Below are positions 31,046 to 50,082 of a stretch of 60,933 nt of DNA, piece after piece. The DNA is from a virus. A program made the position numbers and the translations under genes. The first letter of the stretch is position 1; each line of letters starts with the position of its first letter. The notes below the pieces were generated by a model, which worked only from the letters and a program-made list of their open reading frames with translations, was not told the origin of the DNA and ran no database searches. The stretch is taken from positions 1 through 60,933 of the IMG/VR virus record IMGVR_UViG_3300037114_000075. The stretch is one strand, 5' to 3'.

Positions 31046-31834
31046 ATGAAAAAGCTACATAGCAGGTTCGGGTTGATCTCGGGTTTGGGGTTGCTGATCT
31101 CCGCGCTACCGGCTTTTGCGGCGCCATCGACCGTCAACGATCAGATTCCTGCACCGGTCCCTTCCGCCTCGAACACCACCTTGGGTTCGGAGGTCCTTCT
31201 CCAGAGCTATTCGGTGGGCGGCGGCACTCTCTATCAGAGTTGTTTCCGGGGTTCTGGCGGTCAGGGCGCGGGCGGCAACGGCGGCATTCCTCTGGATTGT
31301 TCTGGCCTCGCCTTCGTCCCGACGAACCTTTCCGGTTCCTTCACCCGTTACATTTCGTTGGCCGATGCTCGGGAAGACAGCGGGCTTCCGCCGACATCGG
31401 CAACCGGATCTGCGACGGCTTTCGGCGTTGCTAGGACGGCTGGCGCATCTTACTCTCTCGTCGGTGCCGCTACCTCGGCCAGTGCGGTCACGACCAAGGC
31501 GATGTGGGAAACCAATGTCGCCTCGACTTACCAAAGCGGAACGGCGATCCCGATTGTGGTCAACGGAAATTATACCGGAAGCGGCACCGTTACGGCGGCG
31601 TCGACCACTTTTTCTGTCGCAGCTTATACAGAGGTGGGCGGCGTCGAGACGGCGATCTCGGGGGTAACCGCAGCGCAGCAATTCACCGGCACGCCGGCCA
31701 ATTACACCTTCAACATTCCGTCGACCGCAGGACTCGTCCCCGGCCAGCATATCGCCATCGAAGTCACAATGCTGGTCACGACCTCGGCCAATGCAGCGAC
31801 CGGGCAGATCAACGCCATCGGCGTCACAGACTAA
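31046..31834 (+). CDS. Exported or signal-peptide-bearing virion-region protein
   Basis: 262 residues, with a strong AAGGAGG site before ATG 31046. The N-terminus is a classic Sec signal: MKKLHSR, a hydrophobic core (LISGLGLLISALP), then AFA as a likely signal peptidase I site before APST. The mature part is Gly/Ser/Thr-rich and beta-like (YTGSGTVTAASTTFSVAAYT), resembling virion surface proteins. Its position between neck genes suggests a virion role, which makes a signal peptide unusual. No lipobox. Confidence 0.7.
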   Translation: MKKLHSRFGLISGLGLLISALPAFAAPSTVNDQIPAPVPSASNTTLGSEVLLQSYSVGGGTLYQSCFRGSGGQGAGGNGGIPLDCSGLAFVPTNLSGSFTRYISLADAREDSGLPPTSATGSATAFGVARTAGASYSLVGAATSASAVTTKAMWETNVASTYQSGTAIPIVVNGNYTGSGTVTAASTTFSVAAYTEVGGVETAISGVTAAQQFTGTPANYTFNIPSTAGLVPGQHIAIEVTMLVTTSANAATGQINAIGVTD

Positions 31835-31878
31835 GCCTTTGATGGCTCCAGCGGCGCGGCGCGCGCGGGAGGCGGCGA

Positions 31879-32715
31879 TTGAATCTTCATCAAGTCGCCT
31901 CCCAGATTGTCGGGGCAATAAATCCGAATCAGGTCGTCGCAGTTCGCAGCAGCATCGGGCCGCTGATCTTGGCAGATGGAAAAGAGGTTCCGAAATACGC
32001 GACGCCTGGGGCGATCACGGCGAGCATCGGCGGGGCTTTCACCGCCTCGGTTCCAGATCCGACCAATCCGACCACTCTCGTCGTTTCCGCCGTTCTGACC
32101 GGCTCTCTTCGGCCCGGCGATGCCGTCTCGGGAACCGACGGCACGAACGCGCTCCCGGTGGGCGCGACGATCATCAAGCAGCTTTCCGGGACGCCCGGCG
32201 CGGCCGGTAGCTATCAGCTCAGCGCCGGGCCGACGACTGGCGCCCTTGAGGCTTGCGAGGTCACCTCAGCCAGTACGGTGCTCAATGTCTCGGTCGTGGC
32301 CAGCGGTGTCCTTCAGCCGGCTCAGACGCTCTCCGATATGACTTCGGCTTTGACCTCCGGCACGATGATCACGTCGCAAATCTCCGGGCTACCCGGCGGC
32401 GCTGGGCTCTATCAATTGAGCGATCAACAAACCGTCGCCAGCGAATCGATGCAGACGTCGATGTCTATCGTCGCGCAGGTCCAAGCGCTGACCGGCGGCG
32501 ATCTCCGCCACATGGATGCCCTTAACCTTCAAGGCTCGCACCGGTCGCTCTATTTCAGCGCCAATGTCCGCGGCGCGGTGCGTGTCTCATTGCGCGGCGG
32601 CGATCTCGTCACGATGCCGGATGGTTCAACTTGGTTGGTGACGCAAGTCGCAGAGCCGTTCTACCACACGGCCGGTTGGCAAAAGGTGATCGTTACTTTG
32701 CAGGCAGGGAGCTGA
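31879..32715 (+). CDS. Head-tail completion protein split by two accessory modules
   Basis: 278 residues, TTG start. The ends, MNLHQVASQIVGAINPNQVV and VQALTGGDLRHMDALNLQGS to VTLQAGS, form a family of about 125 residues that I recall from many Burkholderia- and rhizobial-type myophages, there as one continuous domain. Here residues about 50-195 insert two copies of the accessory module (TLVVSAVLTGSLRPGDAVSG; LNVSVVASGVLQPAQTLSD). The insertion lies in the loop before VQALTGG. Confidence 0.7.
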   Translation: MNLHQVASQIVGAINPNQVVAVRSSIGPLILADGKEVPKYATPGAITASIGGAFTASVPDPTNPTTLVVSAVLTGSLRPGDAVSGTDGTNALPVGATIIKQLSGTPGAAGSYQLSAGPTTGALEACEVTSASTVLNVSVVASGVLQPAQTLSDMTSALTSGTMITSQISGLPGGAGLYQLSDQQTVASESMQTSMSIVAQVQALTGGDLRHMDALNLQGSHRSLYFSANVRGAVRVSLRGGDLVTMPDGSTWLVTQVAEPFYHTAGWQKVIVTLQAGS

Positions 32716-32718
32716 GAT

Positions 32719-33096
32719 ATGTTCAAGACCAAGTTCAAATTTGCGGTCGCGCTGATCGCGGCGCTTGCGCCAACCATTGCGCTCGCTCAAGGGACGGTTC
32801 CAGGGCAATACATGGTCCCGCTCGGCTATTGCCGGCTTACGGCTACAACGCTCGAATCGGCGACGCCGCTTTCCTCGTGCAGCGGAGGAATCCCCGCGGG
32901 CGCCAGCATGGCGGCTATTCAAGCCGAGACGGCCGCTGTCCGCTATCGGGACGACGGCACGGCGCCGACGGCCTCGGTCGGGATGGAGATCGTCAGCGGC
33001 GCGAATCCTATGCTCTACACCGGGACGCTATCCGAGCTTCAATTCATCGCCGCGAGCGGATCGCCTCTCCTCGATGTAGTTTTCTACCGGCAGTGA
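32719..33096 (+). CDS. Small virion protein preceded by a signal peptide
   Basis: 125 residues. MFKTKFKFAVALIAALAPTI then ALA is a typical Sec signal with cleavage before QGT. The mature part (AAIQAETAAVRYRDDGTAPT, ASVGMEIVSGANPMLYTGTL) belongs to a small conserved phage structural family that elsewhere, as I recall, lacks a signal peptide. So the export signal appears to have been added. Confidence 0.7.
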   Translation: MFKTKFKFAVALIAALAPTIALAQGTVPGQYMVPLGYCRLTATTLESATPLSSCSGGIPAGASMAAIQAETAAVRYRDDGTAPTASVGMEIVSGANPMLYTGTLSELQFIAASGSPLLDVVFYRQ

Positions 33097-33097
33097 A

Positions 33098-34069
33098 ATG
33101 GCCTCGATCTCGCCGACTCAATCGAACGCGCAAGCCGCTCTCCGGGCATTCATCCTCGGTATCCTGCCGGCTTTGCCCGGCGGCGGAGGCCCAGCCGTTT
33201 TCTCCGGCTCGATCGAGGGCTCAGCCCTCACGGTGACCGAGGTAATGCTCGGGGCGATCCTAGCGGGCGCGCCGGTGCTCGGCGCCGCGCCGGGAACGCT
33301 CATTGTCGAGCAGACCGAGGGACCCGCAGGCGGGATCGGCACCTACACGGTATCCATTTCTCAGATCATCGGCTCGCCCCCGAGCGGGGCAAATATGGCG
33401 ACGGGCGTCACCGTGATCGCCGGCCAGCAGAACCGCGCCGCAGAGCCGGTCAATCCATGGTTCGTCGTCATGACGCCGATCTCATTCAGGCGGCTCTCGA
33501 CCAACGTCGACGAGGCTCAGGACTGCAAGTTCGTCGCCTCGATCGCCGATACCGAGATGACGGTGACCGAACTCGATGATGGCGCTCTCGCCGTTGGAAA
33601 CCAAATCTTTGGGCCTGGCGTCGCGGCGGGCACCCGCGTGGCGGCCTTCGACAGCGGAAGCGGCGGAATCGGAACCTATGATGTCGCCCCGCCTCAGACC
33701 GTCGCCAGCGAGATCATGTCGGCCGGCACGAAGACGATGACGCAGAATGTCCAGGTCACCATTCAGTGCGATTTCCACTCCCCCGACTTCATCGCTGGCG
33801 ATTTCGCGCAGACTGTAAGCACGGCACTTCGAGACGAGTTCGGTGTCAATTTCTTCGCTGGCCTTGCCGCGCCCCTCAACGGCGTCGTTCCGCTTTATGG
33901 CGATGATCCGAAGCAGACGCCATTTGTGAACGCGGAAAATGCTTATGAATGGCGGTGGGTCTTGGACGTCGAGCTTGAGGTCGAGCAGGTGGTCACGGTC
34001 CCGCAGCTTTATGCCGATTCCGTCATCCCGACTCTCTTTTCCGTCGAAGCAGAGTTCCCGCCTTCCTGA
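33098..34069 (+). CDS. Neck terminator-like (LIC_12616) protein with two inserted modules
   Basis: 323 residues. The framework SPTQSNAQAALRAFILGILP, VIAGQQNRAAEPVNPWFVVM, TPISFRRLSTNVDE, TIQCDFHSPDFIAGDFAQTV and FVNAENAYEWRWVLDVELEV fits the phage neck terminator gp12-like family. Two accessory modules interrupt it: residues about 34-105 (FSGSIEGSALTVTEVMLGAI) and about 145-212 (FVASIADTEMTVTELDDGAL). The family normally has no such inserts, as I recall. Confidence 0.75.
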   Translation: MASISPTQSNAQAALRAFILGILPALPGGGGPAVFSGSIEGSALTVTEVMLGAILAGAPVLGAAPGTLIVEQTEGPAGGIGTYTVSISQIIGSPPSGANMATGVTVIAGQQNRAAEPVNPWFVVMTPISFRRLSTNVDEAQDCKFVASIADTEMTVTELDDGALAVGNQIFGPGVAAGTRVAAFDSGSGGIGTYDVAPPQTVASEIMSAGTKTMTQNVQVTIQCDFHSPDFIAGDFAQTVSTALRDEFGVNFFAGLAAPLNGVVPLYGDDPKQTPFVNAENAYEWRWVLDVELEVEQVVTVPQLYADSVIPTLFSVEAEFPPS

Positions 34070-34154
34070 AGGGGACAGCGCGACAGGCATAATTGTGGAA
34101 TCCGGCGCGCCGTGTTAATCCTTAGCGGCGCAGAAGCGCGAGGAGGGCCTGACG

Positions 34155-36107
34155 TTGACGACAATTCCGGCCAGCACAATCGTAAACGTCGTTCCGAGCG
34201 TCATCGGAGCTGGCGGGACCGGCCTCAACGGCACCGGCCTGATGTTGTCCTACAACTCGCGCATCCCCAGCGGGACCATACTCAGCTTTCAAGATGATCT
34301 AGCCGTCGAAGATTATTTCGGCGTCGGTTCCTTCGAAGCTGCGGAAGCCGCCGACTATTTCGCTGGGTTCAACGGTGCAACGATATCGCCCAGCACATTG
34401 ATGATGGCGCGGTTCAATCAGATCAGTATTCCCGCTTTCCTCCGCGGCGGTGATATCGCAGGGCTCACCCTCGCGCAGCTTCAATCGATCTCCGGCTCTC
34501 TCGACATTCTCATCGATGGGGTTGCGCACAATGCGGCCTCGGTGAATCTCAGCGCCGTGACGAGCTTCTCGAATGCAGCGGCGACCATCGCAACCGCGCT
34601 CAACGGTTCGCTCGCCAATCTCTTCACTGGAACCGGCGCCATCGCGGCGGAAACCGCAGATTTCACTGCATCGATCGCCGGCCTCACCATGACGGTTACG
34701 ACTGTTGCCTCCGGTAAGATTGTCGAGGGCGGCGCCCTCGCTGGAAGCGGCGTGACTTCGGGAACGCTCGTCGGCGCACAGCTCAGCGGGACGCCTGGCG
34801 GAATCGGAATCTATGCGGTCTCGATCTCTCAGATCGTGGCTTCCGAGGCCCTCACGGAGACCTATGGCGAGCTTACCGTCACAGCGGTCTCTAGCGGCGC
34901 CCTCGCCGTTGGCCAGACGCTCGGCGGGGCAACCGTCGAGGCGGGAACCATCATCACAGCCCTCGGGACAGGAACGGGTGGGGATGGCACATATTTCGTC
35001 AATCTGACGCAGACCATCGCCAGCGAAGCGATCACGTCGACGGGCACGGCGGCAACGGTCGCCTTCGATTCTGTCAGCGGCGCCTTCGTCACCACGTCGG
35101 GCATCGTCGGCGCGGCTTCGACGATGGCTTATGCCACCGGCACTGCGGCCGCAGCTTTGATGCTGACCTCGGCGACGGGCGCTGTCATTTCGCAGGGCGC
35201 GGAGGCTCAGTCGCCCTCGACCTTCATGTCCGCGTTGATCATCCAGAATTCGTCCTGGGTCAATTTCATGACCCTTATGGATCCGGACCACGGAAGCGGG
35301 AACGCCATCAAGCAGGAATTCGCAGCTTGGAAAGATACCGCGCTCGGCGGGAATCGGTTCGGTTATTTCTGCTGGGATCCGGACGATTCGCCGGCGACGC
35401 AATCCGATGCAGCGGCGAGCCTTGGCCAAATTCTCAAAGCGAACGGCGATTCCGGCACGCTTCTCATCTGGGAAGGGGGCCAAACGGAGGATAGCGGCCT
35501 TTGTGCTTTCGCTCTCGGCTGGGCGGCGTCGGTCAATTACGCTCAGACCAATGGCCGCGCGACGCTCGACTTCCGCGCGCAGGCCGGGATCGTCGCCAAC
35601 GTCACCGATCCGCTGACCTCGGGAAATCTCGATTCCAACGGCTACAATTATTACGCCGCCATAGGTGCCGGGAACGCAAATTTCATCTGGTTTCAAACCG
35701 GCCAGATCACCGGCGAATATGCGTGGGCCGACAGTTACCAGACACAGATCTGGCTCAACAGTTTTTTCACCGTCCAGCTTCTGACGCTATTCCAGAACGT
35801 GCTCCGAGTGCCGTTCTCCTCTGCGGGCATCACGCTCATCGAAGAGACCTGCCAGACAGTCATTCAGCAAGGGCTCGCCTTCGGCGCCTTCGGTCCCGAC
35901 ACGCTGACGCCCGGCCAAATCGCCGAGATCAACAATCAAGCCGGCGCGAACGTCGCCTCAGTGCTTCAAAGCCAGGGCTATTACCTTCAGGTCCTATTGC
36001 CGGAGCAGGAAATCCAGGCCGCGCGCGGCCCATGGCCGATAACATTTTGGTACATCGACCAAGGGGCAGTCCAGAAGATCGACATGTCGTCGATCGCGGT
36101 GCAATGA
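34155..36107 (+). CDS. Tail sheath protein, DUF3383 family, with two inserted modules
   Basis: 650 residues, TTG start 7 bases after AGGAGGG. N-terminal DUF3383 features (LSYNSRIPSGTILSFQDDLA, DYFAGFNGATISPSTLMMAR, SLDILIDGVAHNAASVNLSA) and C-terminal ones (ASVNYAQTNGRATLDFRAQA, ITGEYAWADSYQTQIWLNSF, FWYIDQGAVQKIDMSSIAVQ) identify a contractile sheath. Residues about 170-297 are two tandem accessory modules (ADFTASIAGLTMTVTTVASG; GELTVTAVSSGALAVGQTLG). With six-fold rings this would put hundreds of modules on the tail surface. Confidence 0.88.
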   Translation: MTTIPASTIVNVVPSVIGAGGTGLNGTGLMLSYNSRIPSGTILSFQDDLAVEDYFGVGSFEAAEAADYFAGFNGATISPSTLMMARFNQISIPAFLRGGDIAGLTLAQLQSISGSLDILIDGVAHNAASVNLSAVTSFSNAAATIATALNGSLANLFTGTGAIAAETADFTASIAGLTMTVTTVASGKIVEGGALAGSGVTSGTLVGAQLSGTPGGIGIYAVSISQIVASEALTETYGELTVTAVSSGALAVGQTLGGATVEAGTIITALGTGTGGDGTYFVNLTQTIASEAITSTGTAATVAFDSVSGAFVTTSGIVGAASTMAYATGTAAAALMLTSATGAVISQGAEAQSPSTFMSALIIQNSSWVNFMTLMDPDHGSGNAIKQEFAAWKDTALGGNRFGYFCWDPDDSPATQSDAAASLGQILKANGDSGTLLIWEGGQTEDSGLCAFALGWAASVNYAQTNGRATLDFRAQAGIVANVTDPLTSGNLDSNGYNYYAAIGAGNANFIWFQTGQITGEYAWADSYQTQIWLNSFFTVQLLTLFQNVLRVPFSSAGITLIEETCQTVIQQGLAFGAFGPDTLTPGQIAEINNQAGANVASVLQSQGYYLQVLLPEQEIQAARGPWPITFWYIDQGAVQKIDMSSIAVQ

Positions 36108-36120
36108 CGGAATCCGAACG

Positions 36121-36552
36121 ATGTCTCTGACCGGCGCCAACTCAGCCATTGCGATCACGCAAGCCGTTCTGTTCCCGACCGCTCAGAGCCTTCAAGGTTT
36201 CGCGGCGGATGACGTCACCGACATGGATCCTGTCGAGATCGTCGAATATCTGATGGGCGTAGATGGCGTTCTCTCGGCTGGCTTCACTTGGAAGCCGCGC
36301 CTGCAGAAGATCAGGCTGCAGGCAGATTCGGCATCGAATCTCGTCTTCGACACGATCAACAATCAGTCGCAGGCCGTCCAGGACGTCTATGCGCTCTCCG
36401 CGACGATCCTGCTCCCCGCGATCGGCTTGAAGTTCACCTGCTCGAACGGATTTCTAAGGAACTACAAGCCGATGCCGGCGGTCAAGCGCCTTATCCAGCC
36501 GCGCGATTACGAGATCGTCTGGAACTCGGTCATCCCGGCGCTGACCGGCTGA
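36121..36552 (+). CDS. Tail tube protein
   Basis: 143 residues. MSLTGANSAIAITQAVLFPT, GVLSAGFTWKPRLQKIRLQA, SQAVQDVYALSATILLPAIG and YEIVWNSVIPALTG are typical of the tube proteins that follow DUF3383 sheaths. It should stack as hexameric rings inside the sheath. Its stop overlaps the next start (TGATG). Confidence 0.85.
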   Translation: MSLTGANSAIAITQAVLFPTAQSLQGFAADDVTDMDPVEIVEYLMGVDGVLSAGFTWKPRLQKIRLQADSASNLVFDTINNQSQAVQDVYALSATILLPAIGLKFTCSNGFLRNYKPMPAVKRLIQPRDYEIVWNSVIPALTG

Positions 36553-36770
36553 TGGTCGGATCGTCCCAAGGATCGCCGTGCCGCTGGTGCGGGGAAGAGC
36601 ACGGACCTCTTTGTCCGTGGATCAAGGCCTTGGAGTTCGATGCCGGCGGCAATGTCATCCGGGCTGAATTCGTCACAGCGGCCGATTTTCCCCGCGCGGC
36701 GCCAGATGGTGAGAAATCTTCCGACGTGCCGAATTACGAAACCTTCAAACCGACGGGAGTTCGCAGGTGA
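36552..36770 (+). CDS. Small Cys-containing tail-region protein
   Basis: 72 residues from MVGSSQGSPCRWCGEEHGPL. The CRWCGEEHGPLC motif has three cysteines and a His that may bind zinc; the rest, WIKALEFDAGGNVIRAEFVT, is a short beta hairpin. Fits exactly between tube and chaperone genes with overlaps on both sides. Similar small proteins occur at this place in related phages. Confidence 0.7.
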   Translation: MVGSSQGSPCRWCGEEHGPLCPWIKALEFDAGGNVIRAEFVTAADFPRAAPDGEKSSDVPNYETFKPTGVRR

Positions 36771-37267
36771 GAAGCAGCGAGATCGTCGTCGTGCCGCCTT
36801 GGGGCAAGCGCGATGCCGGGAAGCATTTTCTGATCACGGAATGGCCGGCGGCGCGGGCGGAGAAATGGGCTGTGGCGGCGCTGTTGGCTTTCAACCGCGG
36901 CGGTGGTCGGTTCCCGATCGAGATGACCGCGGGGATGGGAATGCGCGGCATCGCGGTCCTCGGCCTCGAGACCTTCCTCCGTGGCCAGATGAAGCCCGAG
37001 GAAGTTCAGCCGATCCTCGACGATTTGCTGGACTGCGTTAAGATCGTTCGTGACAAGACGGCGCGAGACAAGGTCACGGGGAAGCCTGTGGCGACCGATA
37101 TCGTCAGCGACGACGACATCCAAGAGGTCCAGACCAGAATGTGGTTGCGCTCGGAGGTCTTGCGCGTTCATACGGGTTTTTCGGTCGGCGACGCTCTCTC
37201 CAGCTTGATCAATTTGATTTTGACGGAGCAGCGGGCCTCGCCGGATACGAAAACGTCTCCGATCTGA
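36767..37267 (+). CDS. Tail assembly chaperone (G-like)
   Basis: 166 residues, GTG start within the previous stop. Alpha-helical protein with KHFLITEWPAARAEKWAVAA and ILDDLLDCVKIVRDKTARDK. It lies between the tube and tape-measure genes, where the chaperone pair is always found. The 3' part overlaps another frame that can be reached by -1 slippage at 37174-37180. It should bind and protect the tape-measure protein during tail assembly. Confidence 0.8.
   Translation: MRSSEIVVVPPWGKRDAGKHFLITEWPAARAEKWAVAALLAFNRGGGRFPIEMTAGMGMRGIAVLGLETFLRGQMKPEEVQPILDDLLDCVKIVRDKTARDKVTGKPVATDIVSDDDIQEVQTRMWLRSEVLRVHTGFSVGDALSSLINLILTEQRASPDTKTSPI
37174..37180 (+). other. Programmed -1 frameshift slippery site
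   Basis: GGGTTTT is in phase as G_GGT_TTT in the chaperone frame, exactly the X_XXY_YYZ form. Slippage by -1 gives GGG TTT then TTC GGT CGG, entering the frame that stays open to 37434. It matches the lambda G/GT strategy. Confidence 0.8.
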
Positions 37268-37434
37268 TCGCGATCCTGTTGTCGGCTGATCGGCCCTCGG
37301 TAACGCTGCGCGAGCTCCAGACAGTTTATGGGCTGGAGGATGCCTATGACCTCCTTGAGATAAGGCTCGTCAACGCGCACAATGAGCGCATCATCGCCGA
37401 GCGCGAACGCCGCGATCGGGAAAGGAATCGCTGA
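37180..37434 (+). CDS. Tail assembly chaperone T-part, made by -1 frameshift
   Basis: 84 residues beyond the slip point, ending TGATG with the tape-measure start. Sequence YENVSDLIAILLSADRPSVT, then LRELQTVYGLEDAYDLLEIR is helical and protein-like. The frame has no good start codon with a ribosome site of its own, so it is best read as the T extension of a fused product of about 222 residues. Confidence 0.75.
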   Translation, partial: FGRRRSLQLDQFDFDGAAGLAGYENVSDLIAILLSADRPSVTLRELQTVYGLEDAYDLLEIRLVNAHNERIIAERERRDRERNR

Positions 37435-38960
37435 TGGCTGGTGCGGTCATAGACAGTATGGTGCTCGAACTCGGCTTGGATGCTTCAAAGTTTTCCGAAG
37501 GCCAGCAAGAAGCGATCACGAAGCTCCACGACTTCGAGACACAATCGCGTCGTTCCGGCGGTGTGATCGAAGATCAGGGCAGGCGCGTTCTTGACGTATT
37601 CCAGGCCTTCCGTCGCGAGGCGATCGTCGGACTTGGCGTATTCTTCGGCGGCAAGGAAACGCTCGACGCGATCAATCATATTATGACGATGGATGCTGCG
37701 ACAGGACGTCTGGCGCGGACGATGGACGTGAGCATCAAGGATCTTTCCGCTTGGCAGGGCGGAATTCAGGCGGTCGGAGGATCAGCGGAATCGGCGAATG
37801 CTGCCATCTCAGGATTGAGCGATGCGCTCGGGCAATTTGCTCTGACCAAGCAACCCCAGGAATGGATGCTATGGGCTAGGCGCGCTGGCGTGAACGTGTT
37901 CGATCAAAGTGGTCATGTCAAAGACAGCATAGAGCTTTTGAAAGAACTGGGGGACGCCGTTCAAGGCATGAATGCGCGCGAGCAAACGGCGTTGCTGGAG
38001 AAAATCCCCGGCATGAATCGGGACATGATCAACTTCTTGATAACGAACCGCCAGCGCCGCGACGAACTTCTTGCTGATTTCGCAGCTACGGCTCCAACGC
38101 CTGCCGAGGAAGCGGCCGCCGAAGCATACGCAGCAAAGCTAACGGAACTCGACCGGTCTGCTACGAACCTTAGTCGGTCGCTGGTTTATGCTCTTGGCCC
38201 CGCGCTGACGACGATTATGGACGCGATGACTAATTTCTTGGGGATTGCCGCAACCCCTCTTCCGAAAGGCGGCTTCTGGTACGATTTAGTCTACGCGCTC
38301 GATCCAGGTATCGCCGACCGGATCTTCGGAGTCCCGAAAGATTCAGATATGGCGACAGGGGCAGGGAGCACCGCTGCCGCGCCAGCACCGGCCGCTGGCG
38401 GAAGCGGCGCCGGGGCGACGCGTGGAGACCGCAACAACAACCCGGGGAACATCGTCTACGGACCATGGGCGGCCGCGCACGGGGCAAGCGGTAGCGACGG
38501 GCACTTCGCCATCTTCCCTACGCTGGAAGTCGGCCAAAGCGCAATGGATGCCCTTCTGGCTTCTGGGTCGTATTCCGGGTTGACGCTCTCTCAGTTGCAA
38601 CAGAAATGGGTAGGTAACGCCGATCCTAATTATCTCGGTGGCCTAGAATCAGCGACAGGCCTCGCCGGCGGCGACGTTCCTAATCTTTCCGATCCATCGG
38701 TTCGGTCCGCAATAGAGCGCGGAATATCGCGAGGCGAAGGAACGCATATCGTGAGCGCTGCTGCTTTGGCTTCCGGGGTATCCCGGTCTATGCCAGCGGC
38801 GGCCGCCCACGGGAGCACGGGTAATCCAGTCACCGTCACCGTTGGGAATGTCTACATCAACGCGCCGCAGGCGAAGGATTCGCCGAGCGCTGCGGCAGAG
38901 GTCGGCCCGGCCCTTCAGAGAAGCATCAAAGCCTCTGCCGCCAATTACAGCCAGCAATAG
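37434..38960 (+). CDS. Tape-measure protein with lysozyme-like segment
   Basis: 508 residues. N-terminal 250 residues are helical and coiled (MVLELGLDASKFSEGQQEAI... LHDFETQSRRSGGVIEDQGR), as in tape measures. Residues about 330-460 contain RNNNPGNIVYGPWAAAHGAS, HFAIFPTLEVGQSAMDALL and LSQLQQKWVG, the signature of a peptidoglycan-degrading domain found in virion proteins. At 508 residues the tail would be short, about 75 nm by the usual 0.15 nm per residue. No membrane segment is obvious. Confidence 0.8.
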   Translation: MAGAVIDSMVLELGLDASKFSEGQQEAITKLHDFETQSRRSGGVIEDQGRRVLDVFQAFRREAIVGLGVFFGGKETLDAINHIMTMDAATGRLARTMDVSIKDLSAWQGGIQAVGGSAESANAAISGLSDALGQFALTKQPQEWMLWARRAGVNVFDQSGHVKDSIELLKELGDAVQGMNAREQTALLEKIPGMNRDMINFLITNRQRRDELLADFAATAPTPAEEAAAEAYAAKLTELDRSATNLSRSLVYALGPALTTIMDAMTNFLGIAATPLPKGGFWYDLVYALDPGIADRIFGVPKDSDMATGAGSTAAAPAPAAGGSGAGATRGDRNNNPGNIVYGPWAAAHGASGSDGHFAIFPTLEVGQSAMDALLASGSYSGLTLSQLQQKWVGNADPNYLGGLESATGLAGGDVPNLSDPSVRSAIERGISRGEGTHIVSAAALASGVSRSMPAAAAHGSTGNPVTVTVGNVYINAPQAKDSPSAAAEVGPALQRSIKASAANYSQQ

Positions 38961-38969
38961 GGGAGAGGC

Positions 38970-39653
38970 ATGTCTTTCGTCGATCTGCTGACCTCCGACG
39001 CCGAAGACCTCGGGCTTGATTCCCTCTCACCCGGATCGGGATGGGGGATTTATCTCAACGGCTCGCCGGTGCTTCAGCCCGCATCGCCTTTTTCGAGCCC
39101 TATGTCTCCGCTGCTCTCGATTGCTTCGTCATTGGCGGCTTTGGTCGGGGTTCCAAATATTGTCCCCGCAACAGCCTCGACCATCGATTTCGAATACGGC
39201 CAGGACTGGCCGATTTCGAACTATCCGCAGGAACAGGGTGCCTTTCAATCATACAACAAGGTGACGCTACCTTTCGACGTCAAGGTTCATGTGGCATCAG
39301 GTGGCAGCCCTTCGGCTCGACAGGCCTTCCTCTCGACATGTCTTGCGATCGCAAATTCGCTTTCGCTGTTTGATGTCGTCACCCCGGAGATGACATTCAC
39401 CAGCGTGTGTTGCTCACACATCGATTGGCGACGCTCTGCGGATCGAGGCCAGACGCTCATCGTCGTCGATCTCTGGTTTCAGCTCATCAGCGTTTCGTCC
39501 TCGACAGGCTTCTCCAACACTCAGCAGCCCGGCGAATCCAGTCAGCAGGCTCTCGGAAGTGTTCAAGCCCAGCAGCCGAGCACGAGCGTCACAAATTCAA
39601 TTTCTGTCGGCGGAGTCGGCGGAAGTTCAATCTCCACGATTCCGGGAAGTTGA
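38970..39653 (+). CDS. Baseplate/distal tail protein (Dit-like)
   Basis: 227 residues. GWGIYLNGSPVLQPASPFSS, ASTIDFEYGQDWPISNYPQE and AFQSYNKVTLPFDVKVHVAS match the N-terminal domain of Dit-like proteins encoded right after tape measures in such myophages. The C-terminal 45 residues are Ser/Gln/Gly-rich and probably flexible. It should join tube and baseplate. Confidence 0.7.
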   Translation: MSFVDLLTSDAEDLGLDSLSPGSGWGIYLNGSPVLQPASPFSSPMSPLLSIASSLAALVGVPNIVPATASTIDFEYGQDWPISNYPQEQGAFQSYNKVTLPFDVKVHVASGGSPSARQAFLSTCLAIANSLSLFDVVTPEMTFTSVCCSHIDWRRSADRGQTLIVVDLWFQLISVSSSTGFSNTQQPGESSQQALGSVQAQQPSTSVTNSISVGGVGGSSISTIPGS

Positions 39654-39656
39654 AAA

Positions 39657-39986: not shown

Positions 39987-39997
39987 ATGGGGCGCAC

Positions 39998-40948: not shown

Positions 40949-40957
40949 GATTCCTTG

Positions 40958-41668: not shown

Positions 41669-41671
41669 TGC

Positions 41672-42073
41672 ATGGACACGCTCATGCTCGACACCGCGCT
41701 GGACGAGAACGGTTTGCCGGTGTGGGATTTAATGGTGGACGCGAATGGCAACATCGCCGTCGCGACTGGCGCGCTCGCGCTCGCGCAAGATGCCGCCTCG
41801 GCGATCAAGACTTTCCTCGGGGAATGTTATTGGGATACGACGATCGGCGTTCCTTGGCTTCAGCAGATTCTCGGCCGGCCTGTCAGTCTCGCGCTTCTCA
41901 AGCAGCAACTTGTCGACGCCGCGCTGACCGTTCCTGGCGTCGCCTCGGCCGTCGTCTATATCTCGGGCTTCTCCAATCGATCCATTGCTGGGCAGGTGCA
42001 GGTCGTCTCGGCGACGACAGGACAGATCGGCGCCGCGAATTTCTCGGTGATTAATCCGCAGGGGACCGGCTGA
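41672..42073 (+). CDS. Baseplate wedge protein, gp25/gpW-like
   Basis: 133 residues. GNIAVATGALALAQDAASAI, KTFLGECYWDTTIGVPWLQQ and LGRPVSLALLKQQLVDAALT follow the gp25-like pattern (DxxGN...LAQ...F.GE..YD...G.P). Acts with gpJ in the wedge. Start of gpJ lies in its stop codon. Confidence 0.85.
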   Translation: MDTLMLDTALDENGLPVWDLMVDANGNIAVATGALALAQDAASAIKTFLGECYWDTTIGVPWLQQILGRPVSLALLKQQLVDAALTVPGVASAVVYISGFSNRSIAGQVQVVSATTGQIGAANFSVINPQGTG

Positions 42074-43947
42074 TGCCCGCAACGAATGTTCCGCCGATCA
42101 TTTGGGGCTTGAATGGTCCGCAGGTTCCGTCCGGCCCTGCGATCCTCTCCGGCGTGCAGGCCGACATCACTGCGTCGTTCGGTACGGCGCTCAATTTCAA
42201 CCTCAATACGCCGCAGGGGCAGCTTTCCTCGAGCTGGGCGGCCGACATCAGCAATGCCTACCAGCTCGTTTCGTATTACGCATTCCAAACCGATCCGGCT
42301 TATGCGCAAGGCCGCATGCAGGACGGCATCGCCGCCATTTACCAGATCACGCGCATCGCTGCGATCCCGACAACGATTCAGGTATCATGCCTCGGCTCTG
42401 CCGCTCCACTGCCGGCGGGGCCGACAAACTTCGCGACCGTTGTCGATCAAACCGGCAACATCTATCAAGCCACTTCGGCGGGCACTCTCCCGGTCGGCGG
42501 GGGCACAATCACGCTGTCCTTCGCCTGCCTGACACCGGGGCCTATTCCGATTCCGAGCGCTCTGACGATCTCGCCGGCGATCCCAGGATGGGATACCGCG
42601 ACGGTCGTCGGCGGCAGCGTCGGCCAAAACACGGAAACATCTCAGCAGTTAGAGCTTCGACGCTCCAATTCCGTTTCGGGCAACGCCCAAAATCTCAACG
42701 ACGCCATTCTCGGACTGATCCTCGGCGTCCCCGGCGTTCTGGATGCCTATGTCGTCGACAATCCGACATCCGGGCCGGTGACGATCGGCGGCGTGGTGAT
42801 CCCGGCCAACACGATCTTTATCGCTGTCACCGGCGGCGCGGCGGCCGCCGTCGCTCAAGCGATTTGGTCGAAGAAGCCACCGGGCATTCCTCTTTACGCC
42901 GGGAACAACAGCCAGACCGTTGTAGATCCAAATCCGCGCTACGTTTCGAATCCGCCTCAATATACGATCACATGGCAAACACCGGCCACGATCCAGGCTT
43001 ATTTCGCGGTGGTCATCGCCAACAGTTCGCTCGTTCCGACAAACGCGACGACGCTCATTCAGCAGGCGATCATCACCGCCTTTCAAGGCGGCGTAGCGAT
43101 CTTTACCGGTTCGATATCCGGCACAACGCTGAATGTCAGCGCAGTTGAGCAAGGCGCGCTGGCCGTCGGGCTTCTTCTCAACGGGCCACGCGTCTCTCAA
43201 AGCACCGTCATCACGGCGCTTGGAACAGGCCAAGGCGGCATCGGCACTTATATCGTGTCCCAATCCCAGATCGTAGCTTCGACGGCGATCTCGGCCTCTC
43301 CGCAAACCAACACGCCGGTTCCCCCGCCGGCGCGCATCGGCTCGACGATATATGCAAACCAATATGGTGCTCTGATCGGCGCTCTCGGATCATGGGCGGC
43401 GGTGAAAAGCCTGCTGGTCGGGTTGAGTTCATTACCGACGGCCTATTTCGTCGGATACATCTCCGGCAACACGCTGACGGTTTTGGTCGCTTCGTCCGGA
43501 ACTATTGCGGTCAATCAGTTCTTGAACGGTCTCGATTCTGCCGCGTCGATTCCAGTTGGCACGATCATCGCGGCGTTGGGGAGCGGGTCTGGCGGGACCG
43601 GAACTTACACGCTCAACAATAGCCTTACACTCGCCGGGGCGACATTCACCGGAACTCGGAACACCGCTGATCAGATCACGGCCAGCGCGGTGACCGGAAT
43701 CATCAATATCGGCGATGTCATAGTCGGCACTGGAATTTCGGCCGGCGTCACCATCACGGGGCAGATCAGCGGCACAACCGGCGGCGCGGGAGTTTATTCG
43801 ACCAGCGCGGATACGTCCGCTTCGAGCGCGTCAGTTACCTGCGGAGCGGCCATAACTGCGGCGGCGGCCAATCAGAATTATGTGGCGCTGGGCATCAACC
43901 AGGAACCGAACATTACAGCGGCGAGCATTTTGGTGAGCTTCGCATGA
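42073..43947 (+). CDS. Baseplate J-like protein with three inserted modules
   Basis: 624 residues. gpJ core: AYQLVSYYAFQTDPAYAQGR, TNFATVVDQTGNIYQATSAG, ETSQQLELRRSNSVSGNAQN and LGVPGVLDAYVVDNPTSG. After residue 340 three accessory modules appear (FTGSISGTTLNVSAVEQGAL; FVGYISGNTLTVLVASSGTI; QITASAVTGIINIGDVIVGT). They are separated by the native segment RIGSTIYANQYGALIGALGS and followed by the native end VALGINQEPNITAASILVSF. Baseplate-J genes of other phages carry such modules too. Confidence 0.88.
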   Translation: MPATNVPPIIWGLNGPQVPSGPAILSGVQADITASFGTALNFNLNTPQGQLSSSWAADISNAYQLVSYYAFQTDPAYAQGRMQDGIAAIYQITRIAAIPTTIQVSCLGSAAPLPAGPTNFATVVDQTGNIYQATSAGTLPVGGGTITLSFACLTPGPIPIPSALTISPAIPGWDTATVVGGSVGQNTETSQQLELRRSNSVSGNAQNLNDAILGLILGVPGVLDAYVVDNPTSGPVTIGGVVIPANTIFIAVTGGAAAAVAQAIWSKKPPGIPLYAGNNSQTVVDPNPRYVSNPPQYTITWQTPATIQAYFAVVIANSSLVPTNATTLIQQAIITAFQGGVAIFTGSISGTTLNVSAVEQGALAVGLLLNGPRVSQSTVITALGTGQGGIGTYIVSQSQIVASTAISASPQTNTPVPPPARIGSTIYANQYGALIGALGSWAAVKSLLVGLSSLPTAYFVGYISGNTLTVLVASSGTIAVNQFLNGLDSAASIPVGTIIAALGSGSGGTGTYTLNNSLTLAGATFTGTRNTADQITASAVTGIINIGDVIVGTGISAGVTITGQISGTTGGAGVYSTSADTSASSASVTCGAAITAAAANQNYVALGINQEPNITAASILVSFA

Positions 43948-44612
43948 GCTTGTCCGGCCCTCCATATCCATTCGCTCCCATTGCCGGCAGCAATGCGATC
44001 GGGTCTTTCCAGATCGGCGTCAGCCCGATCGGGACGATCTCGGCCTTTGACCCATGGCAGACCGTCATTAGCCAATATGCAAATTCACCAATCCTCGACA
44101 TGCTGATCACCTGCTTCAACGCGGCGATCGACCTCACAGAGAATATGGACAATTTCTATGATTATATTTGGAACGTGGCTACGGCGGTCGGCTACGGACT
44201 CGATGTCTGGGGGCGGATCGTCGGCATGTCGAGGACGATCGAGGTTCCGGCGGGCTCTTATCTTGGTTTTGAGGAAGCTGATTCGTGGGTCGGCTTCGGG
44301 CAAGGCACTCTTTATTCCGGTCAAGGTCAATCCGGGACCGCGGTTTCTCTCTCCGATCCGGCTTATCGTCTCCTGATCCTCGCGAAGGCGGCGACGAATA
44401 TCTGGGACGGTTCTATCCCTCAGCTCAACCAGATTCTCCTCAGTCTTTTCCAAGGTCTCGGAAACTGCTATGTTAGGGACAACGGCAACTTGACGATGAC
44501 CTATGTTTTCGACTTCGCGCTGACGCCGGTTCAGTTGGCGATCGTTGAAGCCGGAATTCTTCCTCGGCCAGCGGGCGTCGCGACCTCTATCGTTCAAGGA
44601 GTGATCCCATGA
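43944..44612 (+). CDS. Tail protein, DUF2612 family
   Basis: 222 residues. ISQYANSPILDMLITCFNAA, FYDYIWNVATAVGYGLDVWG, RIVGMSRTIEV and LYSGQGQSGTAVSLSDPAYR fit DUF2612, the counterpart of gpI that links baseplate to fibres. Starts and ends in 4-base overlaps with its neighbours. Confidence 0.88.
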   Translation: MSLSGPPYPFAPIAGSNAIGSFQIGVSPIGTISAFDPWQTVISQYANSPILDMLITCFNAAIDLTENMDNFYDYIWNVATAVGYGLDVWGRIVGMSRTIEVPAGSYLGFEEADSWVGFGQGTLYSGQGQSGTAVSLSDPAYRLLILAKAATNIWDGSIPQLNQILLSLFQGLGNCYVRDNGNLTMTYVFDFALTPVQLAIVEAGILPRPAGVATSIVQGVIP

Positions 44613-46021
44613 TCAGCGTCATTCGTCGGATTGTAACGCTGGCCGCTTTCTTCTTGGCGACGGCCGCGCACGCAATGACGGCATCGTCGATCCCGACGAA
44701 AGTTCCGACATATTGGGGAACAGGCGCTCAGGTCGGATACATCACATGCCCGATACCGATTCCGTCGCAGATAAGCATCGCTGCTGGCCGCGCGTCTTGG
44801 ACCGACGGATTTCCACCGCTGGTTTTTACGCCGGTCGGTGCCGGGGGGGTGCCGTTTTTCGGTCAAGATCTAAATGGTGTCCTCTGCCAGCTCTCGCAAT
44901 GGACGCGCTGGTATGATGCTGGCGCGCCGATCCCCTATGATTCCGCGTTCCAGTCGGCAGTCGGCGGATATCCTGTGGACGCGATCATCGCCAGTGCGGC
45001 GACGCCCGGTAATTTCTGGATCAACATCGTCGACAACAACACGACCGATCCGGACACGGGCGGTGCTGGATGGAAGCCATGGCCGGCAAGCGGCACGGGC
45101 GTCGGGAATGTTGTCGGGGCCAGCGCATCGGCGGTTGGAAATATCCCCAGCTTCAGCAACACGTCGACGACGGGGATTGTCGATAGCGGCGTTGCGGCTG
45201 CAAGTCTGCAAGCGCTGCTCACCGTCCATGATGAGTTCTACGTCAGTCCTACAGGAACCGACGCGGGGAACTGTACCAACTCGGGCGCGCCATGCCTTAC
45301 CCTCACCTACGCCGCGCAACAGGCGCTGAATTCGAATGCCGGAAATAATGTCCAGATCATCAACATGGCTGCAGGGGATTGGAACGAGACGGTCGATATA
45401 CAGGGCACATCTCCATTCAGCGCCAACACGAATCATAACGATCAACTTCTTTTCGATGGAGATGGATCGGGGAACACGACCTGGAACGGCAGCGGCTCGA
45501 ACTGCGGCACTCTCATTGCCAATGCCGGGGCCAATGTCGGGATTGAAAATCTTACGATTGAAGCAGAGCAGAATGCCTGCTCCAGTTCGCTCTATGCCCA
45601 ACTCACGGGGATCATCCAGGTCTATGGAGGCGTGGTTTTTGGGGCGGCCAATGTGTCCCATATCCACGTCGAAGGCGAAGGTTCGCAGGTTCAGATCTGG
45701 AACAGCTACACCGTCGCAAGCGGCTCTTACACTCTCCAATCTCACATGGCGGCGGTCAGCGGCGGATTGATCGAGATCAATCCGACTTCTGTGGCCGTTG
45801 CGTTCGGGTCCCCATCCCCGACGTATAGCATCGGGGTCTTCTTCGCGCAGGTCAACGGAGTTATTTATCTAGGACAACCGGGGAGTTTCGCGGGCGCTAC
45901 TCCAACTGGACCAAAATACTCCGCCTCGACGAATGCAACGGTTTTCACCGACGGCTATGGATGCTCGAATCTTCCTGGAACCGTCGCCGGGGCAACGGCG
46001 ACCAACGGGATCTGTCAATGA
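44609..46021 (+). CDS. Receptor-binding tail spike/fibre 1 with signal peptide
   Basis: 470 residues. Residues 1-22 are a Sec signal: MISVIRRIVTLAAFFLATAA then HA, with cleavage before MTASS. A known fibre N-domain follows (AGRASWTDGFPPLVFTPVGA, GGVPFFGQDLNGVLCQLSQW, DNNTTDPDTGGAGWKPW). Residues 215-400 look like a right-handed beta-helix of the pectin-lyase kind (EFYVSPTGTDAGNCTNSGAP, QLLFDGDGSGNTTWNGSGSN, GTLIANAGANVGIENLTIEA). Probably binds or degrades a surface polysaccharide. Confidence 0.8.
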   Translation: MISVIRRIVTLAAFFLATAAHAMTASSIPTKVPTYWGTGAQVGYITCPIPIPSQISIAAGRASWTDGFPPLVFTPVGAGGVPFFGQDLNGVLCQLSQWTRWYDAGAPIPYDSAFQSAVGGYPVDAIIASAATPGNFWINIVDNNTTDPDTGGAGWKPWPASGTGVGNVVGASASAVGNIPSFSNTSTTGIVDSGVAAASLQALLTVHDEFYVSPTGTDAGNCTNSGAPCLTLTYAAQQALNSNAGNNVQIINMAAGDWNETVDIQGTSPFSANTNHNDQLLFDGDGSGNTTWNGSGSNCGTLIANAGANVGIENLTIEAEQNACSSSLYAQLTGIIQVYGGVVFGAANVSHIHVEGEGSQVQIWNSYTVASGSYTLQSHMAAVSGGLIEINPTSVAVAFGSPSPTYSIGVFFAQVNGVIYLGQPGSFAGATPTGPKYSASTNATVFTDGYGCSNLPGTVAGATATNGICQ

Positions 46022-49000
46022 CCAAGGCATTCCTCAGAGCTTTTCGCACGATATGTGTCGGGGCAATGTTGCTTCTGCCGGCTTTGGCTCACGCTCAATC
46101 GGCTTGCTCGTATATCGCCTATGGCGCGGTGCTGACGGCGGCGCAGTGGAATTCCTGCTTTACGGCGAAGCAGGATTATCTCGGCTTCACTCCGCTCAAT
46201 CCGGCCAATTTGATTGGCGTCGCGCCGATCACTGCGACGTCATCTGGCGGAGATCTTTACATCGGGCTGAATTACGGCGGCGGCCTCGGCCTAGTCGGCA
46301 GCGCGCTCAACCTGCTGCCGGCACAGGCCGGCACGCTTGGCGGCATCTTATCGGTCACCAATCCGCCATCGCAATTCTCGACCGGGCCGAACATCGAGGC
46401 GGCGTCCGGTATTCCCATCGGCTGGCCTACCGGCGGGAATTATGCGCCGTACACGAGCTTTAATGTTCAACCCGGGTTCAATCAATTCCTCACCGGGGTC
46501 AACACTTCCGGCCGGCCAATCTCGCGCGGGATTACAACCCTCGCGCCGTCGGTGCTCGGGACGATCACCCCTGGGATGCCCTACGGCGATATGCCGTGCT
46601 GCATGTGGTTTCCCCATTACATCGGCGTCGTGGGTGATGATCTGAACGGCGGCGATCCGACACTTTCGCTCACCAGTCAGCTCATTTCGCAATCTAAAAA
46701 CACGCGCAATTGGTTCATATATAACAATCAAGGTACGCTTCTATTTGCCACTAACGCCGATGCGTTCGAGAGCCCATACGGGAACGATACTGTTGCTGGC
46801 TATACAGCACTTTCTTTTCCCCGAACGAGCCTGTTCCCGCTTTATGCGTCTTTCGGCGAGCCTCTGATTGTATCTTCGGTCCCGGCAAATGGCTGGTTTC
46901 TTTTTGACGCGCTGCCAAATAACGGCGATGTCGCCGGTGTGAACGGGACCAATGTCACCTTCACAAGCGGAACCCCGACCGGCAACGAAGTCGCGATCTC
47001 CCAAGGAACGGCTCAATTCACCGGCAGCATTTCCTTGGCTTCCACTACGTTTCAGGCGACGATCTCCAGAAGCTTGATGATCTTGACTGGGCCTTGCGTC
47101 GGAGGCCCGATAATCAATCGTGCCGTCATAGCTGGCACGGGCATCGTGGCTGGGCCGCACACGCCCGCGCCGAACATGGGGCTCACCGCGAGCCCGGTGG
47201 TCAACGGCCTCGTTTCGGGCACGGCATGCGAGCCCGGCGCCACCTATGCGATTTCCGAGAACGAGACCGTAGCGACGCCGGAAACGGTCACGCAAACCTA
47301 CGGCGTGCTGAACGTCCCGACAAATCCGGGGACGATCAATGTCGGGGATATTCTAACCGATCAATCCGCCGACATTCCGCTGCTCACCACGATCATGGCG
47401 CAGGAGGATGCGAACGATTACTACGTCAACAATTCGACGCCGGTTTCCAGCGAGGCGATGTACTCCAACGCCGTGCAACTGACGCTCGCGAACCTCGACA
47501 TATTTCTGCAAGGCTCGGCCGACACGAACATCGACAAGGGCGTCTACAACAAGGACGGCGCCGATGAAGAAATTATAAAGTATTACAAAACCGGCACGCT
47601 TGGAAATGCTTTTACGCTTTCCACCACCAGTTCCAATATCACTCCATCTGGCGCGACGCTCGCCGGGGGAGGCGCCCAAGGGAACATATTCCAAGGAGAC
47701 ATGAGCCTCCAGACCTACCAAGACGGGACGGGGGGTGTGTTCAGCGCACCCCAAGTGGACGCAACAGCTGGCTCAACCCTTTACGGGGCAACAATCGGCG
47801 CGGCTGGTTTGGTGGCGACTACAGCTATTTCATACTTCGGCGATACCAGGATTCAGAACATCGGCACGGACTACCCGCATATAAACTTTCTTAATCTCAA
47901 CGCGACGGCTGGCGACCAATACGGAAACGAGCAACTTGATTTAAGCGGCACCCTTCACATAGCAGCCGGGGCCTATGGAAGCTCATCGGACTGGCTGACC
48001 ATGACGCAGACGACGGGCGTAGCGACGCAGATCAACGCGCTCGTGCCGACGATCATAAATCTGACCGGCGCGGCTCTGTCGGCTAAGCAAACCGGAACGG
48101 CGCTTCAGATCGCTGGGGCAAACGGCGTCACGACGCGCGTCGAGTTGGATGGATTCGGGACCGGGGCCACGGCTGGCGCGCCACGCTATACCTGCGTTCG
48201 GGGTGATGGCACAGGCGCGTCACCTACGGCAGTGCAGTCTGGCGACGAGATCTGTTCGCTCAATACATTTGCATATTACGGTGCCGGAACCTCCGCCGGA
48301 CCTGCGGCTGCGTTTCGCACATATGCTGCGCAGAACTGGGGCACTGGGGCTTACGGAACCTACTCAGATATTGCCACGACGCCGATTGGCAGCACCACAC
48401 TCACGTCGGTAATCCGGTTTGAGAATGACGGCGGAATCGATTGCACGGGCGTCACCGGCGGCGACAAAGGGCCGGGCTCGATCAATTGCGACGCGATTTA
48501 TGTCAACGGCGTCCCGGTCATCACGTCCGCGCCATACCTGCCGCTTGCCGGCGGCACGATGGCCGGCCCGATCGCCATGGCCGGCTACAACATCACGGGC
48601 ATAGGGGCGCTGTCGCTCTCGGGACAAATCACCTCCACCGAAACAACCGGCACGGCCCCGTTCGTCGTCGCCTCGACCACGCAAGTCGCCAATCTCAATG
48701 CGTCGCAATTGATCGGCGCGAATTGGGCATCGCCCGGCGCAATCGGGGGCACCACACCGGCTGCTGGTGCGTTTACCACGCTCGCGGCCAACGAGCTGAA
48801 TTTGCCGACCACATCATCCTCGACGGTGGGTGTGCTCAATATCAACGGGGCACCCTTCATTCAAGCCTACGGAACGAACAATGCGTTCTTCGGCGGATCT
48901 GGCAATTTCACGCTAACGGGAGTCGCGAATACCGGGATCGGTAATGGCGCCTCGCCCGGGCTCACGAGCGGTAGCAACAATGTTGCAGTTGGAAAGAATG

Positions 49001-50082
49001 CGCTGCTCTCGGACACAATCGGCGGCGACAACATGGCGCTGGGCTACGGCGCTTTGGATAACAATGTCTCAGGAAACTACAATGTAGCGGAAGGCTACAG
49101 CGCGGAAGTCTCTGCAACCGGCAGCGAAGACACTGGCATAGGTGGTCAGATTTTCCCGAATCTCACTGGGGGTTCGTTCAATACCGCCATCGGCTACGAT
49201 GCCGGCCAAGGCATCACGAGCGGCAACGATGACACGATCATCGGCGCGGCGATCAATCTCGGCGGCAACTATTCCAGCATAATCGCGATCGGCACCGGTG
49301 ACGGAACGGTACGAGCCGATTTCGGCTTTACCAATTCCGGCAAATGGACGCTGACCGGCGGCCTTGTCGTCCCGGCTCTGACGACGGCGGGCCTCGCCAC
49401 GGTGACCTCGGCCGGCCTGTTCGGCAGCGAGGCCAGCGCGACCGTTCCGCAAGGCGGTACCGGCCTCGCAACGCTCACCGCAAACACGATCTACAAGGGC
49501 AACGGCACCAGCGCGCTGGCGGTTTCGTCGATCACCGATAACGGGACGGTTGTGGCCACGGCGGAGAACGTCACCTTCTCCGGGTTGGCGACAAGCGGGA
49601 CAATAGCCGGGGCGCTCTGCGCCACCTCAGGAGGATCGGTCCTTTACGAAACTGGCGGCTGCGGGCTTGGCACTGGATTCACAACAGCTGGGACAGGGTT
49701 GGCGGCGGCCGGGGCCACGATCAATTCCAACGGGGTTGCGTTCGTTTCGTTCCAGCCGGGCTTGATGACCGCCGTCTCGGGGAATATCGCCGGGTTCCAT
49801 AAGTTCTCGAAAGCCTCCACCGTCGATAATATCGAAGGCTCTGCGCAGCAATTCAGTTGCACCGTCAATCCGACGATCACTATGTATGAGTGCGGCACCA
49901 GCGCTACGTGCACAAGTCCTACGACCATCGGCTCAGCCACCTTGACGGCGACTTCGACAAGGACTGACGGAACGATATCAAGCGCTTCCATCGCGGCAGG
50001 CGATTCGATCGCCTTCGCAATCACCGCTGGAACTTGCGTCACGCTCGATGCGAGCTTAACCGCGCAAGTCCATTCGAACTAG
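46018..50082 (+). CDS. Long tail fibre 2 with signal peptide
   Basis: 1354 residues from ATG 46018 (overlaps the previous TGA). Sec-like signal: MTKAFLRAFRTICVGAMLLL then PALAHA before QSACSY. Fibre N-domain next (YGAVLTAAQWNSCFTAKQDY). Two degenerate accessory modules lie near residues 333-480. A beta-structured shaft follows. Head repeats in the YadA style (SGSNNVAVGKNALLSD; GSFNTAIGYDAGQGIT) are near residues 980-1080. The C-terminal domain ends IAAGDSIAFAITAGTCVTLD. Main receptor-binding fibre. Confidence 0.85.
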   Translation: MTKAFLRAFRTICVGAMLLLPALAHAQSACSYIAYGAVLTAAQWNSCFTAKQDYLGFTPLNPANLIGVAPITATSSGGDLYIGLNYGGGLGLVGSALNLLPAQAGTLGGILSVTNPPSQFSTGPNIEAASGIPIGWPTGGNYAPYTSFNVQPGFNQFLTGVNTSGRPISRGITTLAPSVLGTITPGMPYGDMPCCMWFPHYIGVVGDDLNGGDPTLSLTSQLISQSKNTRNWFIYNNQGTLLFATNADAFESPYGNDTVAGYTALSFPRTSLFPLYASFGEPLIVSSVPANGWFLFDALPNNGDVAGVNGTNVTFTSGTPTGNEVAISQGTAQFTGSISLASTTFQATISRSLMILTGPCVGGPIINRAVIAGTGIVAGPHTPAPNMGLTASPVVNGLVSGTACEPGATYAISENETVATPETVTQTYGVLNVPTNPGTINVGDILTDQSADIPLLTTIMAQEDANDYYVNNSTPVSSEAMYSNAVQLTLANLDIFLQGSADTNIDKGVYNKDGADEEIIKYYKTGTLGNAFTLSTTSSNITPSGATLAGGGAQGNIFQGDMSLQTYQDGTGGVFSAPQVDATAGSTLYGATIGAAGLVATTAISYFGDTRIQNIGTDYPHINFLNLNATAGDQYGNEQLDLSGTLHIAAGAYGSSSDWLTMTQTTGVATQINALVPTIINLTGAALSAKQTGTALQIAGANGVTTRVELDGFGTGATAGAPRYTCVRGDGTGASPTAVQSGDEICSLNTFAYYGAGTSAGPAAAFRTYAAQNWGTGAYGTYSDIATTPIGSTTLTSVIRFENDGGIDCTGVTGGDKGPGSINCDAIYVNGVPVITSAPYLPLAGGTMAGPIAMAGYNITGIGALSLSGQITSTETTGTAPFVVASTTQVANLNASQLIGANWASPGAIGGTTPAAGAFTTLAANELNLPTTSSSTVGVLNINGAPFIQAYGTNNAFFGGSGNFTLTGVANTGIGNGASPGLTSGSNNVAVGKNALLSDTIGGDNMALGYGALDNNVSGNYNVAEGYSAEVSATGSEDTGIGGQIFPNLTGGSFNTAIGYDAGQGITSGNDDTIIGAAINLGGNYSSIIAIGTGDGTVRADFGFTNSGKWTLTGGLVVPALTTAGLATVTSAGLFGSEASATVPQGGTGLATLTANTIYKGNGTSALAVSSITDNGTVVATAENVTFSGLATSGTIAGALCATSGGSVLYETGGCGLGTGFTTAGTGLAAAGATINSNGVAFVSFQPGLMTAVSGNIAGFHKFSKASTVDNIEGSAQQFSCTVNPTITMYECGTSATCTSPTTIGSATLTATSTRTDGTISSASIAAGDSIAFAITAGTCVTLDASLTAQVHSN

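Follow-up and report, generated by a model that had tools for sequence, protein, structure and literature searches.

A contractile-tailed soil phage, recorded as IMGVR_UViG_3300037114_000075, was found to carry Sec signal peptides on both of its tail fibres and on two proteins of its head/neck region, and some components of the particle are probably produced in another compartment of the cell than the remainder. The record, a virus of bacteria, was analysed over its whole length of 60,933 bases (the window). In the reading we favour, to which sequence comparisons lead us to give a probability of roughly 0.6, the virion would be built in two compartments, with a core assembled in the cytoplasm and with add-on parts that, after export, cleavage and oxidation, are kept in the periplasm until they dock as the cell lyses.

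The virion genes lie in the order portal, head maturation protease, major head protein, Neck1, DUF3383 sheath, E217-type baseplate hub, baseplate wedge, DUF2612 and two fibre genes (Table 1). The DUF2612 gene stands directly before fibre 1, in an order matching that of Klebsiella phage ST15-VIM1phi2.1, and the succession of baseplate wedge, DUF2612-type gene and fibre is common to Bcep781 and ST15-VIM1phi2.1, phages with the fibre-1 domain. A close relative, G001, has a sheath 99% identical to that of the window. A short repeat domain (GTGGxGTYxVSxSQxVAS) is inserted in a head protein at 31879-32715, the neck terminator at 33098-34069, the sheath and the baseplate wedge at 42073-43947; the copies in the neck terminator, sheath and wedge also match PHROG families 38233 (tail fiber) and 21413. 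A tRNA-Met gene lies at 3629-3704 on the minus strand.

Table 1 Features of the window and of two Bcep phages. A slash marks the predicted cleavage site; positions are those of the window unless a locus is named.
Feature	Position	Strand	Signal peptide	Cleavage site	Signal score	Mature Cys	Evidence
Head/neck-region protein, 262 aa	31046..31834	+	31046-31120	AFA/APST	5.7	2	
Small beta-rich head/neck-region protein, 125 aa	32719..33096	+	32719-32787	ALA/QGTV	6.0	2	
Contractile tail sheath (DUF3383)	34155..36107	+	none		2.7		PF11863 E=2.4e-96
DUF2612 baseplate/structural protein	43944..44612	+	none				PF11041 E=1.4e-53; synteny
Tail fibre/tailspike 1, 470 aa	44609..46021	+	44609-44674	AHA/MTAS	5.3	8	
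N-terminal domain of fibre 1	44675..45085	+					alignment; common to signal-less fibres of Bcep1, XapPhi1, Orisa01 and others
Tail fibre 2, 1354 aa	46018..50082	+	46018-46095	AHA/QSAC	6.0	16	
Protein directly after fibre 2, 181 aa	50164..50709	+	50164-50235	SFA/QTDD	4.2	0	
Bcep781 gp49	L324 33608-35686		present		5.8	14	
Bcep1 gp51	L325 659-2224		present		5.7	4	

The initial annotation had described Sec signal peptides on the proteins at 31046, 32719, 44609 and 46018 and a fifth signal protein at 50164 directly after the fibre, and the N-termini bear out this description. At the sequence level the signal peptides are genuine. They read MKKLHSRFGLISGLGLLISALPAFA/APST (31046), MFKTKFKFAVALIAALAPTIALA/QGTV (32719), MISVIRRIVTLAAFFLATAAHA/MTAS (44609), MTKAFLRAFRTICVGAMLLLPALAHA/QSAC (46018) and MKIAPLLGACVVAGVGLAPVPSFA/QTDD (50164). 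In all five a basic n-region precedes an uncharged hydrophobic core and an AXA-type site, within 20-26 residues, as is usual for Sec and signal peptidase I. Neither a full Tat motif nor a lipobox Cys at +1 was seen on reading the five N-termini by eye, and no lytic family of the kind found in SAR endolysins was detected in the five proteins.

Signal scores were obtained with a home-made heuristic that combines n-region charge, h-region hydrophobicity and the residues at -3 and -1. In calibration, nine E. coli-type signal peptides scored 3.5-6.3 and four cytosolic proteins at most 1.6, while head and tail proteins of lambda, P2 and Bcep781 stayed below 4.0 except for membrane proteins, lipoproteins and Bcep781 gp49. 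Within the cassette only the five proteins reach 4 (4.2-6.0); all other genes score at most 3.5. When residues 2-35 were shuffled with composition preserved, the observed score was reached in 6 (31046), 9 (32719), 96 (44609), 15 (46018) and 37 (50164) of 3000 shuffles, so that by the shuffle test alone 44609 has the weakest signal. High scores are rare in the background, which covered 957 genes of at least 100 aa located upstream of the fibre in 125 homologous loci: 14 of them reach 4, and these include at least four fibres of the same type. Separately, an endolysin-like protein at 51478-52314 has a strong N-terminal signal (score 6.6), and its C-terminal stretch weakly resembles TIGR02594, below the cut-off.

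Fibre 1 keeps, behind its signal peptide, the N-terminal domain of ordinary cytoplasmic fibres. The domain matches the homologous PHROG tail-fibre families 12796 and 1396 and, weakly, the solved tailspike depolymerase 24qi. Fibres of the isolates Bcep1, Bcep781, XapPhi1, Orisa01, phiAO1, Amjad_SA, KP12, Acjo_20 and ST15-VIM1phi2.1 start with this domain; the isolate members examined are signal-less, unlike fibre 1 of the window. Across viral and genomic loci, a signal peptide lies ahead of the domain in 25 of 125. The structure model of fibre 1 is poor (pLDDT 53). In the fibre-2 family, signal scores are bimodal, with 94 of 111 homologues above 3.75 and the remainder below 1. Among isolates, blast with the family domain matched Rhizobium phage Paso only, and that in part, and blast with the window's own fibre-2 start gave no match; a survey of 397 host genomes of one order with fibre 2 returned only the two already known ones. 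Both proteins had been called receptor-binding proteins. Their signal peptides stand, and the receptor-binding role is one suggested by domain, position and homologues.

The other two signal-bearing proteins, which had been placed with the fibres in the same cassette, lie in the head/neck region and not among the fibres; their signal peptides are likewise confirmed. The 31046 start is preceded by AGGAGG at 5 nt, and the two Cys of the mature part are residues 66 and 85. This family is small: its close relative in G001 has a signal peptide, and none is present in G004 or L321. The G004 relative (52% identity over 164 aa) is also without the stretch that holds both Cys. For the beta-rich 32719 protein, the AlphaFold model is good (pLDDT 93); its matches to solved folds are weak (E=0.013 at best) and have cupin-like folds among the top ones, and it otherwise matches mostly unnamed viral proteins. 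A single Cys pair (GYC...SSCSGG) lies in the mature part of the protein.

Whether homologues share the signals, as the initial annotation had asked, has a divided answer: signal-bearing and signal-less members coexist in the 44609, 46018 and 32719 families, the last with 17 of 65 members signal-bearing. In all three families the predicted cleavage point coincides with the N-terminus of the signal-less homologues or lies only a few residues from it. The signal sequences themselves vary widely and the domain behind them is conserved; between G001 and the window, for example, the fibre-2 signal peptide is altered and the next 46 residues are almost unchanged, with the sequences of both fibres diverging past the N-terminal domains. 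On the best trees the signal state changes at least nine times in fibre 1, at least seven times in fibre 2 and at least nine times in the 32719 family. L035 and L061 have a signal-less fibre 1 alongside a signal-bearing fibre 2, and in G004 the fibres bear signals and the neck proteins do not. These comparisons indicate that the signal peptides are an added module whose presence is set gene by gene.

According to a passage in PMC7678975 that cites Dutton 2008, even numbers of Cys are favoured in exported proteins when the bacterium has a Dsb system. We counted Cys in clusters at 60% identity, from about the conserved domain onward and only in proteins with Cys. An even number was found in 84 of 101 signal-bearing fibres vs 31 of 90 signal-less homologues (Fisher p=3.5e-12). 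Signal-less virion genes, as a negative control, had even numbers in 221 of 602, and other signal-bearing genes of the same loci, as a positive control, in 85 of 109. At stricter clustering the excess was present in fibre 2 alone (30/36 at 50%, 14/16 at 40% and 9/10 at 35% identity), and fibre 1 clusters collapse at 50% identity or less. C-terminal modules grouped by single linkage fell into few groups and were uninformative. In the 32719 family a Cys pair (even number, at least 2) occurs in 14 of 15 signal-bearing clusters vs 2 of 34 signal-less ones (p=2.5e-9). In a full-length alignment, two signal-less homologues of the window's fibre 1 lack all eight of its Cys.

We also counted tree-independent pairs, which rest on short-domain trees with weak branch support. 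Signal peptide and Cys pair agree in 8 of 9 such pairs in the 32719 family, with none opposed, and over all families about 15 pairs agree and 2 oppose (p ~0.001). For fibre 1 alone, correcting for the tree leaves a weak association (3.5 vs 1.4 pairs), and with well-supported branches only, each family retains 1 to 3 pairs, an underpowered set in which none is significant. DsbB is encoded in each of six host genomes that carry homologous loci. Since an even Cys number is characteristic of proteins that undergo oxidation in the periplasm, the signal peptides of the window very probably work. Taken with the signal-bearing and signal-less homologues, the cysteine-pair signature makes the export of virion-type proteins well supported at the level of sequence.

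Tailed phages are taken to assemble entirely in the cytoplasm. In the two-compartment reading, the capsid, neck, tube, sheath and baseplate would still be made and assembled there without signal peptides. The peripheral parts that can be added last, namely the two fibres, the decoration-like proteins at 31046 and 32719 and probably an accessory protein at 50164, would be exported by Sec; the signal peptides are found on such parts, and capsid, sheath, tube and baseplate have none. Signal peptidase I would then cleave the exported parts and the host Dsb system would oxidise them; the evolutionary pattern points indirectly to export and oxidation. The folded parts would be held in the periplasm, where fibre trimers may form. 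Once the cell has been opened by holin, endolysin and spanins, particles from the cytoplasm would mix with the periplasmic fibres, which may dock through their conserved N-terminal domains. Fibres and tailspikes of T4 and P22 are able to attach to finished particles in vitro. Of the possibilities first raised for these proteins, addition of the fibres at the envelope comes nearest to this route, with periplasmic storage and docking at lysis as a conjectural form of it. No description of assembly after lysis in tailed phages was found in the readable literature. That a widespread group of tailed phages joins a cytoplasmic particle to Sec-exported, disulfide-bonded fibres and decorations only at lysis is a broader proposition, for which we would give even odds.

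The exported proteins could instead be no part of the virion, filling the periplasm or coating the surface so as to mask receptors, exclude other phages or stop progeny from binding debris. Exported superinfection proteins are indeed known, among them Cor-type lipoproteins (PMC4936722) and the lambda outer-membrane protein Lom (PMC12309495), and several signal-bearing loci have further exported genes after the fibres. Neither a signal-free fibre gene nor a second fibre set was found in the window, however, so the signal-bearing fibres presumably serve the virion. Because of this, and because two head/neck-region proteins carry signal peptides as well, secretion for masking only, as the initial annotation had proposed, is rather unlikely. 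The retention of the N-terminal domain of cytoplasmic fibres and the gene-by-gene mixture of signal-bearing and signal-less fibres in L035 and L061 also speak against it.

The N-terminal segments might alternatively stay uncleaved, as the initial annotation had also suggested, tethering the fibres at the inner membrane so that virions pick the fibres up there or take the segment into the particle. SAR endolysins are an example of phage proteins whose signals stay uncleaved or are released slowly (PMC6116005). We consider anchoring of this kind very unlikely here, because the AXA sites are of the usual kind, signal-less homologues start at or close to the predicted site and the mature parts are of a disulfide type.

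Fibre 1 has an ATG exactly at its mature N-terminus (44675), and an ATG near that point occurs in 10 of 26 signal-bearing fibre-1 homologues; in principle, each gene could yield a full-length exported form and an internally initiated cytoplasmic form for the virion, much as Ms6 LysA uses two starts (PMC6116005). The ATG at 44675 is without a Shine-Dalgarno sequence, though, and a Shine-Dalgarno of at least 4 nt precedes an internal start in none of 26 fibre-1 genes and 1 of 87 fibre-2 genes. A start codon near the mature N-terminus is absent altogether from 11 of 26 signal-bearing fibre-1 homologues and 63 of 87 signal-bearing fibre-2 homologues. This largely rejects dual products, which we hold to be very improbable indeed. 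The suggestion that better starts might lie downstream of the hydrophobic segments finds no support in the same data, and the N-termini together with the start-codon analysis reject a misannotated start as the source of the signal peptides. Finally, that the signals are functionless relics of recombination with exported host proteins would suit their patchy, gene-by-gene presence, but it is extremely unlikely given that they are intact over wide sequence divergence and that the mature parts obey the cysteine rule of exported proteins.

The closest known counterparts of fibre 2 are in the cultured Burkholderia phages Bcep781 (gp49) and Bcep1 (gp51), and also Bcep43 (gp48). The records of gp49 and gp51 read 'possible tail fiber; possible signal peptide domain'. 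Behind their signal peptides these proteins start QFAPGQ(V/I)LTAAQLN, resembling fibre 2, and their phages have the same gene order with a fibre-1-type gene. A start motif GxVxTAxQxN behind the signal peptide was seen by eye in the sequences of fibre 2 and the gp49 type, although blast from either start gave no link; gp49 was recognised by reading the control genome. The Bcep phages have one signal-bearing fibre, and their fibre-1 homologues (Bcep781 gp31, Bcep1 gp33) are signal-less, unlike that of the window. There is a fair chance that, with the Bcep annotation already known, the assembly route itself is new.

Virion proteins with Sec signal peptides are known in filamentous phages, whose coat proteins include M13 pIII and pVIII, the former with disulfides. 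Unlike the window phage, M13-type phages are extruded through the membrane without lysis and have no cytoplasmic capsid assembly. Exported endolysins (fOg44 Lys44 and SAR endolysins) are late phage proteins that pass through host Sec (PMC6116005), but they are lysis enzymes and not virion parts. Lambda Lom and Cor-type lipoproteins are exported in infection or lysogeny and are neither fibres nor in the virion. No description of signal-bearing tailed-phage fibres was found in the literature covered; a paper on gp38 adsorption explicitly reports the absence of a signal peptide, and such absence has been used as support for phage origin (PMC6199706). If the two-compartment reading is true, lack of a signal peptide can no longer be relied on in this way to recognise structural genes of phages. 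Were fibres to mature in the periplasm, disulfides would be usable for hard-wearing receptor-binding proteins, host Sec and Dsb would be needed and attachment would have to be coordinated with lysis. The signal-bearing and signal-less homologues are ready-made controls, and the Bcep781-type phages, being cultured, are a ready laboratory system.

Relatives of the 50164 protein mostly score as signal-bearing, and the one in G004 (L018 1699-2202) sits between that genome's two fibre genes. A small exported protein of this type may assist the exported fibres, either as an accessory or as their chaperone. Downstream of the fibres in L034, L060, L071, L073, L085, L057 and L107, we observed other signal-bearing proteins, which start AD(M/L/V)xxKAPxxxxY. 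They presumably resemble rhizobial outer-membrane beta-barrels and, by analogy, are possible counterparts of lambda Lom.
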